From: Tritonibacter litoralis
GTDB taxonomy: Bacteria; Pseudomonadota; Alphaproteobacteria; Rhodobacterales; Rhodobacteraceae
Direction: 5' to 3'
Assembly (NCBI RefSeq): GCF_009496005.1
Contig: NZ_WIBF01000001.1
Location: forward strand, 558,001-622,000
Length of the DNA stretch: 64,000 bases
A model generated the notes under the pieces. The model saw nothing but the letters and a program-made list of their open reading frames with translations, did not search any database and had not been told where the DNA came from. The number at the start of each line of letters is the position of its first letter. Position 1 is the stretch's first letter. This document shows, piece after piece, positions 36,351-39,207 of the stretch. The translations under genes and the position numbers were made by a program.

Positions 36351-36674
36351 ATGCAAATGCCACCCAAAGTGACCGATCGCGCCTTTGAACGCCTGGCAGA
36401 AATCGGTGCCGCCGCCCAAGGGCAGGCGCTGCGCATTGCTGTGGAAGGCGGCGGCTGTTCCGGCTTTCAATATCAGATCGAACTGGATCAGCCCGCGCAG
36501 GACGACCTGGTGCTGGAAGGAAACGGCGAAAAAGTCGTGGTCGACAGCATCTCCTTGCCCTATCTAGCGGATGCAACCATCGATTTCTCAGAAGAGCTGA
36601 TCGGCGCGCGTTTTGTGATCAACAACCCAAACGCAACAGCAAGCTGCGGCTGCGGCACATCTTTCTCGATGTAA
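36351..36674 (+). CDS. erpA: A-type iron-sulfur carrier (ErpA/IscA family)
   Basis: A 107-residue HesB/IscA-family protein. The three conserved cysteines are in place: Cys36 in EGGGCSGFQY and a CGC pair (residues 100 and 102) in SCGCGTSFSM. Such proteins hold a [2Fe-2S] or [4Fe-4S] cluster and pass it to apo-enzymes. The position next to dgt suits the protein usually called ErpA in this group. A GAGA-containing leader precedes ATG 36351; Met3 is a possible alternative start. It faces the unknown 352-residue gene 34 bases away. Confidence 0.85.
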   Translation: MQMPPKVTDRAFERLAEIGAAAQGQALRIAVEGGGCSGFQYQIELDQPAQDDLVLEGNGEKVVVDSISLPYLADATIDFSEELIGARFVINNPNATASCGCGTSFSM

Positions 36675-36708: not shown

Positions 36709-37767
36709 TTACCGCGCCCGCCCGCCGCGCGCGAACCCGTCATAGAAGCGCTCAAAATCCGGGATGCTGTTTTCCGCCTCCTGGAGCAGCTCACCATCGC
36801 GCAGTGGCAAGGCGGCCAGGATTTGGTTCCGCGCAGTGGTCCAAGCCAGTGCCCCAAGGCTTTCATCATTATACATCAGCTGAGACAGGGACTTCATCAC
36901 CCCTGGCGCCTTGCCGCCACGGATCTGTGTCGCGCCCGACGGAACCGCATGGTCAAACCCGCCCTGCCCGGCCGTCATCGCCCACCAGGCCCCAACAAAA
37001 TAGGCGTGGTAATCGTCATGGGTGCCATCAAACCCATCGGGAATAAACCTGTAGCGCTGCTGAGACTGGGCCAAGGCTTGCTCCCACTGCACGGGCACAG
37101 CTGCCTTTGCAAATCGCAGCGAAATACAGACCTCTGCCAAAAGATCCATGTTCTGATCCAAATAAGCGAGGATGCCGACATTTCGCAGACTCTCGACTGC
37201 CTCAGATGGCAGATCGGGATTACGCCGCCCATATTCCGACAGGTAGAACACGATATGGGTCAGCTCATAGGCCACTTTTGAATTGGGCATCGCAAACCGC
37301 GCGCTGTCACAGGCAAACCGCCGCAAACGATCAGACAAACCCGGATCCGCCCGACCGATGTTCCGGCGCGCCAGCAACCGCTCTGCTTCGGCCCGCTGAA
37401 GATCGGACAGCTCCAAATCCGCCAGTTTTTGCGTGTGAACCCAAGCGGCCAAAACCTGACTTTTCTCGCCCCCAAGACCCAAATCTTCGAGGTCCATACA
37501 GATCGACAAATAGAATCTGTAGTATTGGCGAAAAAAACACAACCTGCGGTCAATATTGTTATAAAACGGCAAATAAGCGGAGAGATCCAATTCGCCCGAC
37601 CCGCCAATTTGGCTTTCAAGAATATTTAGAAGTTCAGCATTTTCTTTCAGCCAAAAAACATCATTTTCAGACCTGCGAAAACGCGAAAAACAATCAATTA
37701 AAACATCATTTGAAGTCCGGGTGGTTTGATGATCCGCCCAGCCACGCAAGGAAACCACGTTTGACAT
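36709..37767 (-). CDS. Unknown 352-residue protein, partner of the repeat peptide
   Basis: A soluble, mostly helical-looking protein with no signal peptide, membrane helix or known catalytic motif: no CxxxCxxC, Walker A or protease signature. Parts worth searching are LIDCFSRFRRSENDVFWLKE at the N-terminus, ELTHIVFYLSEYGRR in the middle, and DGTHDDYHAYFVGAWWAMTA near residue 265. The N-terminal third is visibly richer in A and T than its neighbours. ATG 37767 has AAAGGG upstream. It follows the 74-residue repeat peptide by 56 bases, which contain an attenuator-like hairpin. It may match one of the recently named Rhodobacterales DUF families (I think of DUF6902), but I cannot check this. Confidence 0.75.
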   Translation of the reverse strand: MSNVVSLRGWADHQTTRTSNDVLIDCFSRFRRSENDVFWLKENAELLNILESQIGGSGELDLSAYLPFYNNIDRRLCFFRQYYRFYLSICMDLEDLGLGGEKSQVLAAWVHTQKLADLELSDLQRAEAERLLARRNIGRADPGLSDRLRRFACDSARFAMPNSKVAYELTHIVFYLSEYGRRNPDLPSEAVESLRNVGILAYLDQNMDLLAEVCISLRFAKAAVPVQWEQALAQSQQRYRFIPDGFDGTHDDYHAYFVGAWWAMTAGQGGFDHAVPSGATQIRGGKAPGVMKSLSQLMYNDESLGALAWTTARNQILAALPLRDGELLQEAENSIPDFERFYDGFARGGRAR

Positions 37768-37789
37768 AAACACCCTTTCAAAAGGAGAA

Positions 37790-37816
37790 ACTGCGCCAGG
37801 GAAACCCTAGCGCAGT
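37790..37816 (-). terminator. Attenuator-like hairpin between repeat peptide and partner gene
   Basis: On the minus strand a 12-bp stem (ACTGCGCTAGGG with CCCTGGCGCAGT, one U-G pair, loop TTT) starts eight bases after the peptide stop. It is followed by TTCTCCTTTTG. The imperfect T-run suggests partial termination, which would give more peptide mRNA than partner mRNA. Confidence 0.65.
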
Positions 37817-37823
37817 CAATATT

Positions 37824-38048
37824 TTAGCTTCCGGAAGAGAACAGCATGGTCGCATCACCCTGACGGACGTCAGCACCTGTCACAGGGGCAGAACCAGACG
37901 AGAACATTTCGGTTCCCGCGCCAGCGAATTCGGATGTTTCAACAACAGGCGAAGACCCTGACGAAAACATATGTGCACCCTCACCCGCAAAAACATCACA
38001 GGAAACGGATTCAGAAACAAACACAACTTCTTTTTTCAACGCAGACAT
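37824..38048 (-). CDS. 74-residue peptide with three 21-residue FSSGS repeats
   Basis: The protein starts MSALKKEVVFVSESVSCDV and then repeats with an exact period of 21. Phe28, Phe49 and Phe70 each begin FSSGS; Phe20 and Phe41 precede by eight residues (FAGEGAHMFSSGSSPV, FAGAGTEMFSSGSAPV). The third unit is looser (QGDATMLFSSGS) and ends exactly at the stop. One Cys only (17), so multiple thioether rings are excluded. The Shine-Dalgarno sequence GGAGG is five bases from the ATG, very strong. It has no signal peptide. It resembles a multi-core precursor peptide, but could also be a small structural or phase-forming protein. It may belong to a named Rhodobacterales DUF (DUF6749 comes to mind); not verifiable here. 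Confidence 0.8.
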   Translation of the reverse strand: MSALKKEVVFVSESVSCDVFAGEGAHMFSSGSSPVVETSEFAGAGTEMFSSGSAPVTGADVRQGDATMLFSSGS

Positions 38049-38400
38049 TTAAACCTCCAAGGTTGCAGAAACGTAAATTCAGCATTGATAAAAACAACAA
38101 CCCTAGCAAGAAGAAAAACAAGAGAACAAATATGCCAACCTTAAGATTAACCATTTTTCCACAAAGCAACCATGCGATAATAATTGAATTTATTGAAATG
38201 TCCAAAATGAATCCACAAACTTATAACCAGGACAAAATTGCAAAGCCTTCATTTCCAACTCCTTTTGCGCCCATTGGTTGCTGCAAAATATAAACCTCTC
38301 CCTATGTGTGTGATTCGACCTGCGCTCCTTGTCAGCCCCCTTGCCCTGACCCGCACCATCGGCGATAGAGCATAAGACTGGGCAGGCTCGGAGCGTTCAT
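38049..38400. other. AT-rich divergent intergenic region, repeat peptide / xth
   Basis: This 352-base gap is clearly richer in A and T than the surrounding core genes, most of all at 38049-38310. It must hold the promoters of the repeat peptide (minus) and xth (plus). On the minus strand TATATT (near 38290) could be a -10 box. Two short frames lie in it: a 20-codon frame with a strong ribosome site (listed separately) and a hydrophobic frame that I do not accept. Confidence 0.5.
38190..38252 (-). other. Possible 20-residue upstream peptide
   Basis: A short frame MKALQFCPGYKFVDSFWTFQ is preceded by AAAAGGAG six bases before its ATG. It would be on the leader of the repeat-peptide transcript. 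It is rich in aromatic residues. It may be a regulatory leader peptide, or chance in AT-rich DNA. Confidence 0.3.
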
Positions 38401-39207
38401 ATGAAAATCGCCACTTTCAACATCAACGGAATCAAAGCCAGAGCCGCCGCGCTGGGAGATTGGCTCGATGAAGCCCAACCTGACGTCGCCGTTTTGCAAG
38501 AGATTAAATCAGTGGATGAGGCTTTCCCACGCGAGCTCATCGAAGACCGCGGCTATAATCTGGAAACACATGGTCAGAAAAGCTTCAACGGGGTCGCAAT
38601 CCTGTCCAAACACCCGCTAGAGGACGTGCAACGTGGTCTGCCGGGCGATGACAGCGACGAACAGGCACGTTGGATCGAAGCCACCGTGGTGGGCAAACAG
38701 GCGCTGCGGGTCTGCGGCCTCTATCTCCCCAATGGCAACCCGGTCGAGCTGGATGACGCGGGCCAACCGGTCGCCGGTGGCAAATACGACTATAAACTGC
38801 GCTGGATGGAACGTCTGCACGCGCGGGCGCAGGAACTTCTGCGCGCGGAAACCCCGTTTTTGATGGCCGGGGACTACAATATCATCCCCCAGGCCGAAGA
38901 TGCGCGCCGTCCTGAGGCGTGGCGCGAGGATGCGCTGCATCGCCCGGAAAGCCGCGCGGCCTATCAGCGCCTTGTGAACCTTGGGCTCACCGATGCGTTC
39001 CGCGCCCGTAATTCCGCGCCTGGGCAATATTCATTTTGGGATTACCAAGCAGGCGCTTGGAGCCGCGACGATGGCATTCGGATTGACCATTTTCTCCTTA
39101 GCCCACAGGCGGCTGATCTGCTGCGCGACTGCCAGATCGACAAAGAGGTACGTGGTCGTGAAAAGCCATCGGACCACGTGCCTGTTTGGATCGACATAGA
39201 TATCTGA
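38401..39207 (+). CDS. xth: Exodeoxyribonuclease III / AP endonuclease
   Basis: A 268-residue base-excision repair enzyme that cleaves DNA at abasic sites and degrades 3' ends. Motifs: KIATFNINGIKARAA at the N-terminus, LQEIKS with the metal-binding Glu (residue about 34), GLYLPNGN, AGDYNIIP near 155, DYQAGAWSRDDGIRIDHFLL-type segment near 220, and the catalytic SDHVPVW near 259. The length is standard. It faces an FAD monooxygenase over a hairpin-rich gap. Confidence 0.94.
   Translation: MKIATFNINGIKARAAALGDWLDEAQPDVAVLQEIKSVDEAFPRELIEDRGYNLETHGQKSFNGVAILSKHPLEDVQRGLPGDDSDEQARWIEATVVGKQALRVCGLYLPNGNPVELDDAGQPVAGGKYDYKLRWMERLHARAQELLRAETPFLMAGDYNIIPQAEDARRPEAWREDALHRPESRAAYQRLVNLGLTDAFRARNSAPGQYSFWDYQAGAWSRDDGIRIDHFLLSPQAADLLRDCQIDKEVRGREKPSDHVPVWIDIDI

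Follow-up and report, generated by a model that had tools for sequence, protein, structure and literature searches.

The window, by which we mean the whole stretch of 64,000 nucleotides of Tritonibacter litoralis DNA that was analyzed, contains a cassette of two genes on its minus strand. The first gene (37824–38048, minus strand, stop codon at 37824–37826) encodes a precursor peptide of 74 residues with three core units. Each core reads FSSGS. Core 1 covers residues 28–32 (37953–37967, minus strand) and has GEGAHM in front, core 2 covers residues 49–53 (37890–37904, minus strand) and has GAGTEM in front, and core 3 covers residues 70–74 (37827–37841, minus strand) and has GDATML in front. Both spacings are exactly 21 residues, and the third copy ends on the C-terminal residue of the protein, just as the original prediction had described. 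When the peptide is shuffled with its composition kept, any 5-mer occurs three times in 24 of 100,000 shuffles (equal spacing was not demanded). The strong ribosome-binding site that had been noticed is also there: the sequence reads GGAGG at 38054–38058 on the minus strand, 5 nt before the ATG.

The second gene follows on the same strand (36709–37767), again as predicted. Its reading frame was listed as 36709–37773 from a GTG; starting from the ATG at 37767 yields a protein of 352 residues. The protein belongs to DUF6902, in the DUF6895 superfamily, and is our proposed modifying enzyme. Between the two genes lies a terminator-like hairpin of 13 pairs followed by a T-rich tail (37789–37817, minus strand), which the original prediction does not mention. 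At −23.3 kcal/mol, the hairpin is more stable than all 60 dinucleotide shuffles. It is strong in the window and in near kin (L128–L130); a threshold of p 0.05 is passed in only 31 of 75 loci. Hence we do not claim the hairpin for the family. Our inference is that it may reduce enzyme expression compared to that of the precursor.

The cassette was said to lie between two genes, which holds. A gene that we take to be HesB/IscA-type (36351–36674, plus strand) forms the downstream border of the site, and a gene that is presumably of the exodeoxyribonuclease III type (xthA; 38401–39207, plus strand) forms the upstream border. Both names were inferred from the sequences, without a family scan. No further gene lies between xthA and HesB in the window, and the cassette holds no protease, exporter or immunity gene. 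The idea that the partner itself could be an exporter finds no support.

The cassette had also been called AT-rich. This is true for the peptide gene (50.2% GC) and for the stretch upstream of it (38049–38300, 34.9% GC), compared to 58.0% for the window. It is only partly true for the partner gene, which has a GC content of 54.4% (49.0% in the 5' half, 59.7% in the 3' half). Similarly, an end of the cassette at 38252 overshoots the peptide gene and reaches into the AT-rich upstream stretch.

Pairing of the two genes across genomes

Of 295 genomes from the window's family, the Rhodobacteraceae, 82 contain DUF6902. A peptide profile, built from 23 peptides, matches 76 of the 295 genomes. All 76 are among the 82 DUF6902-positive genomes, and none of the 213 DUF6902-negative genomes has a profile match (Fisher p 5e-64, not corrected for relatedness). 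Whether the two genes co-occur had been raised as a check on the original prediction; the peptide is found only together with the partner. The profile misses six DUF6902-positive genomes: G039 (L127), G099 (L115), G139 (a contig-end fragment), G264 (L117), G283 (L124) and G288 (L114). Three of their loci, L115, L117 and L124, do carry the peptide despite the profile miss. In an order-wide draw of 196 genomes, DUF6902 has a match in 58, of which 57 are above the cut-off.

The pairing is also visible locus by locus. We assembled 81 DUF6902 loci, 80 of them fetched and one the window itself; the fetched loci comprise 76 of the 82 DUF6902 positives and four further members of the window's genus. 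G115, G139, G181, G198 and G272 are DUF6902-positive genomes that are not among these wide loci. The peptide lies just upstream and on the same strand in 79 of the 81. A locus-level peptide model, seeded by 50 stretches from the same loci, finds a complete reading frame in 75; of the six loci that it misses, four do carry the peptide, cut by a gap (L080) or by a contig end (L087, L088, L111). The two loci without a peptide are L114 and L127. For both, 7.9–8.0 kb of upstream sequence is present, and a search of 1.6 kb of each found no peptide. In a named collection, where we took the best 80 of 359 relatives, the peptide is upstream in 80 of 80 loci; this set overlaps with the 81 loci.

The site of the cassette is fixed. 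Of the 80 fetched loci, 74 have xthA on the upstream side and 71 have HesB on the downstream side. We also read the surroundings of xthA in twelve genomes without a peptide match (by phmmer with the window peptide or, for G023, by the profile). In two members of the window's genus, G297 and G307 (L277 and L276), the cassette is absent, and gaps of 68 and 70 bp separate the ends of the HesB and xthA matches. At this site the pair is thus either present as a whole or missing as a whole. Three further members of the genus, G300, G301 and G310, hold DUF6902 though they have no phmmer match to the window peptide. Hence phmmer with the window peptide alone misses many: three of the five genus members without a match hold DUF6902. 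For the other seven genomes no DUF6902 was seen in the stretch around xthA; HesB lies 0.3–1.4 kb from xthA in six of them and off the contig stretch in one. The fixed site between xthA and HesB speaks against mobility. The partner of the window has no plasmid match at E 1e-5, and no match in viral contigs was confirmed.

A conserved stretch and a variable tetrad in each unit

To describe the repeat unit, we used an unbiased anchor that asks only for the G and the F/Y and for nothing in the following tetrad. It recovers 484 units in 71 precursors. A unit has G at position −6, D or E at −5 (419 of 484), V or T at −3 (437 of 484) and M, L or A at −1. The anchor F (or Y) at position 0 is followed by a tetrad of four residues and then often by A/G-P. 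Left out of this table are L113, L115, L117 and L124, which lack two F/Y anchors. The number of units per precursor, whose variation had been suggested as a check, ranges from 2 to 20. The precursors with two units are L115, L117, L122 and L126; the units of L124 were not properly counted.

Within a precursor the tetrads are nearly identical. Across these 71 precursors and 484 units, the four tetrad positions mismatch in 3–6% of comparisons within precursors and in 33–65% between genomes. For the spacer columns (+7 to +12) the corresponding values are 68–71% and 85–89%. A single tetrad is found in 61 of the 71 precursors. For five of the ten others (L052, L055, L059, L066, L079), chance anchors explain the odd tetrads. 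Truly mixed tetrads remain in 5 of 71 precursors: L078, L094, L106, L107 and L108.

As a separate observation, the mixed precursors L094, L145 (Ruegeria pomeroyi), L106, L107 and L108 combine tetrads such as SSGS with STSC. Perhaps these precursors have been caught in the middle of a switch, or perhaps they make two products.

Between genomes the tetrads are diverse. There are 31 main tetrads in the 71 precursors. SSGS is the main tetrad in 18 and TSWS in 8, followed by TSGS, TSGL, SSGA, TTSC and 25 rarer ones including IAGL. Other cores are FSWS, MCCS and MSCS (L113, L115, L117), ALSPSC (L124), an STSSF-type core (L273) and a QSFSAP-type core (L272). Hence the precursor fits the definition of a RiPP in having a conserved recognition part (G at −6, D/E at −5, F/Y at 0) and a core that varies between genomes.

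Repeats could be alike merely because they were copied recently. This alone does not account for the tetrads. When we consider only unit pairs that are less than 20% identical elsewhere, the tetrad is shared in 77% of pairs within precursors (209 pairs), compared to 6% between genomes. For pairs with 20–40% identity elsewhere, the tetrad is shared in 95% within precursors and 7% between genomes. Furthermore, where tetrad residues are identical, their codons differ in 42–54% of comparisons; in the spacers they differ in 37–62%. The codon comparison rests on our first within/between table, in which units were picked by tetrad similarity; that table is therefore biased, and it leaves out L124. 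The window itself illustrates the pattern: its three copies of SSGS are encoded by TCG TCA GGG TCT, TCG TCT GGT TCT and TCT TCC GGA AGC. Silent differences of this kind mean that the copies are not fresh duplicates. Judging from these comparisons, the tetrad is kept alike by selection and not only by recent copying.

Mapped onto a tree of DUF6902 with 75 rows, the 35 tetrad types require 47 changes. This count is only approximate because many forks of the tree are open (45 of 78 inner branches); the label for L124 was given by hand. Closely related enzymes can be paired with different tetrads: L061 has CSAS and L062 has SSGS, while L055, L057 and L058 have SSGS, TSGS and SSCS. Even within the window's genus some members carry SSGS and others SSTC. 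The copies in a precursor thus change in concert, against little change in the enzyme. Such behavior suits a payload rather than an address. As far as such comparisons can tell, the tetrad looks like the payload of the unit.

The partner protein and its superfamily

The partner had been described as a protein without a recognized motif, which is wrong. It matches the Pfam family DUF6902 (PF21843) with 415.9 bits (cut-off 27, E 1.5e-124), and residues 1–347 of 352 align to profile positions 1–350 of 351. Residues 71–247 also match DUF6895 (PF21836) with 75.6 bits (cut-off 23.8, E 5.5e-21). The protein therefore meets the requirements for membership in both families. Alignments with hhalign to two DUF6895-type proteins give E-values of 1.5e-5 (probability 79.8) and 2.5e-7 (probability 93.4). 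It has no NCBIfam model and no match to a radical SAM family.

DUF6902 and the aligned DUF6895-type proteins have in common the motifs Y-x-x-T-H, G, D-[LV]-x-x-E and Y-H. In an alignment of 17 proteins (7 DUF6902 and 10 DUF6895-type), 16 share each of Y167, H171, D208, E212 and H254, and all 17 share G180; the exception in the displayed blocks is L127. His171 (motif Y-x-L-T-H; codon at 37255–37257), Asp208 (in D-L-x-x-E; 37144–37146) and His254 (in Y-H; 37006–37008) are candidate catalytic residues, and Glu212 (37132–37134) belongs to the same D-L-x-x-E motif; all four codons are on the minus strand and were computed from the start at 37767. The candidate catalytic residues are thus shared with DUF6895-type proteins, with the limitation that the residues of the published enzyme itself are not in the comparison.

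Loss of these residues coincides with loss of the peptide. Of 81 DUF6902 proteins, 79 retain both H171 and D208. In L114 the histidine has become R and the aspartate S in an intact frame, and in L127 they have become Q and L. These are exactly the two loci that lack a peptide. Partners that commonly occur without the peptide would have refuted the original prediction; partners without a peptide do exist (2 of 81 loci), but both have lost the conserved His and Asp. In L271 (G789) both genes have decayed: DUF6902 is spread over several frames, and the peptide breaks off after its second unit, with the first unit altered. These sequences suggest that the enzyme needs the two residues where the peptide is kept, and the reverse. 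The cases are few, with only two loci for the link between residues and peptide.

The AlphaFold model of the partner is of high confidence (pLDDT 91, pTM 0.90) and nearly all-helical. A Foldseek search of the PDB by fold gave no match at E 0.001 or better (best E 0.15). Without a solved counterpart of the predicted fold, no active site can be transferred. By sequence, the best PDB match is an engineered spike construct (E 0.0013). No stretch of it passes on its own, and we do not regard it as credible.

The peptide is even less well covered by families. The window peptide has no Pfam or NCBIfam family. Its relatives (six searched in Pfam, three in NCBIfam) give matches below the cut-off only, except for the repeat model CRAM_rpt on L124 (20.4 bits, cut-off 19.8). 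DUF6749 was considered as a peptide family, a guess that no search supported.

The pairing may extend beyond DUF6902. We read six genome loci with DUF6895-type proteins outside DUF6902, four from other families (L221, L222, L268, L269) and two from the window's family (L270, L274). These are the loci above the DUF6895 cut-off; below it, G344, G363 and G468 were left out, and L266 and L267 looked unrelated. At all six a small reading frame with an aromatic core lies just upstream, as in GGELVGPWFVLKE, GGELVGNWYVLREG and DWTFVSPNYVYKG. All of them except L270 have a common leader such as LVxxGIIDxxxxLxxL. Nine plasmid matches fall into seven DUF6895 regions, since two records matched twice. A precursor-like reading frame with an aromatic core lies just upstream in four of the seven (L288–L291): a region from Pseudalkalibacillus, a pair of one type from Streptomyces or Kitasatospora, and another from Streptomyces. 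Taking the genome and plasmid frames together, most carry a leader such as LxxxGIIDxxxTLxxL. None lies directly upstream in L292, the situation is unclear in L293, and none was seen in L294. Precursor-like frames upstream of DUF6895-type proteins hence span Bacillota, Actinomycetota and Pseudomonadota. All these upstream frames were assessed by eye, with no null model. The small frames that we scanned have no family above the cut-off. In the five plasmid regions that come with annotation, no gene is named as a lasso gene, though many are labeled "hypothetical".

Two further observations concern the plasmids. The Streptomyces chartreusis plasmid (L294) has two DUF6895-type reading frames in tandem. 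On the Streptomyces and Kitasatospora plasmids L290 and L291, DUF6895-type genes lie near type I polyketide synthase genes and IPT/TIG-domain genes.

Proposed function and known systems

The precursor-enzyme pair is real, widespread and undescribed in the literature that we searched, which contains no mention of DUF6902, DUF6749, PF21843 or PF21836, names DUF6895 in a single paper and has no titles on such peptides. We think it fairly probable that the pair consists of a multi-core precursor and a modifying enzyme of the DUF6895 superfamily, probably an epimerase, which together yield a short peptide that is specific to the lineage. Neither the product nor its chemistry, export or role has been shown. 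The pairing, the anatomy of the unit, the limited variation of the tetrad within a precursor, the conservation of the enzyme residues, their absence where the peptide is absent, and the homology to DUF6895 are established to the extent that comparison of genomes can establish them. The conserved pairing of adjoining precursor and enzyme genes also meets the definition of a RiPP, where modification by the partner is inferred. A multi-core ribosomal peptide with a modifying partner had been proposed originally and is now supported, by comparative evidence only.

The proposed mechanism is as follows. Each unit would consist of a shared address, G-[D/E]-x-x-x-x-F, and a payload tetrad (SSGS in the window) that is alike in nearly every unit of one precursor. 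The enzyme would bind the precursor through the shared parts and act once per unit. The most likely reaction would be the L-to-D inversion (epimerization) of one residue, in which His171, Asp208, Glu212 and His254 may act as acids and bases or bind a metal. Several copies of one short peptide would then be released by a host protease. In the window, the intergenic hairpin may hold the amount of enzyme below that of the precursor.

The choice of epimerization rests on homology. A DUF6895 family protein is, to judge from the title by which alone we know the report, an epimerase in the pathway to a lasso peptide (Shi et al., ACS Catal. 2026, doi 10.1021/acscatal.5c08590; cited in PMC13352647). 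As far as that title goes, it is also the only reported function in a related family; a match to a family of known but unrelated function, which would have counted against the original prediction, is not what we find. The chemistry, the residue that is inverted, the release of the peptide and any role of it are all inferred. A payload that is uniform within a cell and differs between lineages would fit signaling or self-marking. Nothing tests such a role, and a signal or a mark of self and non-self is a guess.

Several results weigh against our explanation. No product, expression or reaction has been seen. The epimerase assignment leans on a family whose report we know by its title, and the fold offers no solved structure to compare. 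The window cassette lacks a protease, an exporter and an immunity gene, and only about 70 bp lie between the flanking genes in the two genomes of the genus without it. SSGS is the main tetrad in 18 of 71 precursors, and hence tetrads are not unique; five precursors truly mix them. L114 and L127 keep the partner without a peptide, and recombination can also homogenize repeats.

The same pair of genes could work with a different per-unit chemistry, such as cleavage after the core, cyclization, dehydration or another change of Ser, Thr or Cys. The precursor logic and the conserved His/Asp/Glu/His leave the reaction unfixed, and tetrads that are rich in Ser, Thr and Cys, usually with A/G-P next to them, could suit cleavage or a side-chain change. 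However, DUF6895 is reported as an epimerase family, at least by title, and the tetrad IAGL (L126) has no Ser, Thr or Cys, so a side-chain reaction on these residues of the tetrad cannot be general. Another chemistry stays possible and in our view unlikely. The tetrad could also be a tag read by another, unlinked protein, for example in kin or phage recognition, while DUF6902 only matures or loads the tag. Many tetrads that change even inside the window's genus (SSGS and SSTC) are what recognition systems look like; yet no receptor candidate is linked to the window cassette (none was sought genome-wide), and we give the idea very little credence.

A more radical departure is that no peptide is excised at all. 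The repeat protein would then serve as a scaffold or as a binding repeat, to which DUF6902 would bind as partner or chaperone, with gene conversion and avidity keeping the tetrads alike. Repeat arrays homogenize easily, precursors reach 20 units, and an all-helical partner could well be a binding protein. However, equally diverged unit pairs still share the tetrad (77% compared to 6%) while the spacers are not homogenized, and the tetrad copies differ by silent codon changes. A binding motif for the partner would also not be expected to change while the partner changes little, and some members have only two units. We therefore regard a scaffold as improbable, less so than an unlinked reader of tags.

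If the pair is indeed a precursor with its modifying enzyme, two domains of unknown function turn into a testable system that is common in marine bacteria. A tetrad that hardly varies inside one precursor, yet differs between many genomes, is unusually clear genetic evidence of selection on the short peptide itself. Should DUF6902 be an epimerase, it would offer an easily studied single-enzyme, multi-core route to D-residue peptides, and the DUF6895 superfamily would give genome mining a way to find many undescribed peptides. The boldest version of this idea is a minimal two-gene system in marine Rhodobacteraceae that makes a short D-residue peptide from a multi-copy precursor, with the tetrad as a code word that all copies share and that is rewritten between lineages (a hypervariable signal or self-mark), and with DUF6895/DUF6902 as a class of RiPP maturases across Pseudomonadota, Actinomycetota and Bacillota, well beyond lasso peptides. 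We offer it tentatively, as a possibility that we rather doubt in this full form.

Known peptide epimerases differ from DUF6902 in several ways. MslH is the metal-dependent epimerase of the lasso peptide MS-271 (PMC10406935). It resembles our proposal in being a peptide epimerase that acts on a ribosomal precursor by acid/base catalysis; in contrast to the activity proposed for DUF6902, its target is one Trp at the C-terminus of a single core. The fold of MslH is a different one, of the metallophosphatase type, and homology was neither tested nor is claimed. In epipeptides, YydF is epimerized by the radical SAM epimerase YydG (PMC7026026). There too one enzyme epimerizes a ribosomal peptide, an activity that is inferred for DUF6902; in contrast to the radical SAM enzyme, DUF6902 is modeled as all-helical.

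The DUF6895 lasso epimerase comes from a homologous family and, its title suggests, also acts on ribosomal peptides. DUF6902 differs in forming a separate Pfam family, in having no lasso genes seen beside it and in its multi-core precursor with a payload of four residues. The definition of a lasso peptide, a B protease/RRE and a C cyclase in the cluster, is not met at the cassette site; we made no genome-wide search for lasso genes. The definition of a lanthipeptide or other multi-thioether peptide, cysteines in the cores, is not met either. The window peptide has a single Cys outside the cores, and many tetrads lack Cys, so the earlier exclusion of a multi-ring thioether peptide stands.

Cyanobactin PatE-type, microviridin and ustiloxin-type precursors are multi-core RiPP precursors in which each core copy has a recognition sequence. 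Their clusters hold dedicated proteases, ligases or oxidases. The DUF6902 system shares with them the several core copies in one precursor, each with its recognition sequence. It differs from them in that its cassette has one enzyme and a payload of four residues, alike in nearly all copies of a precursor and different between many genomes.
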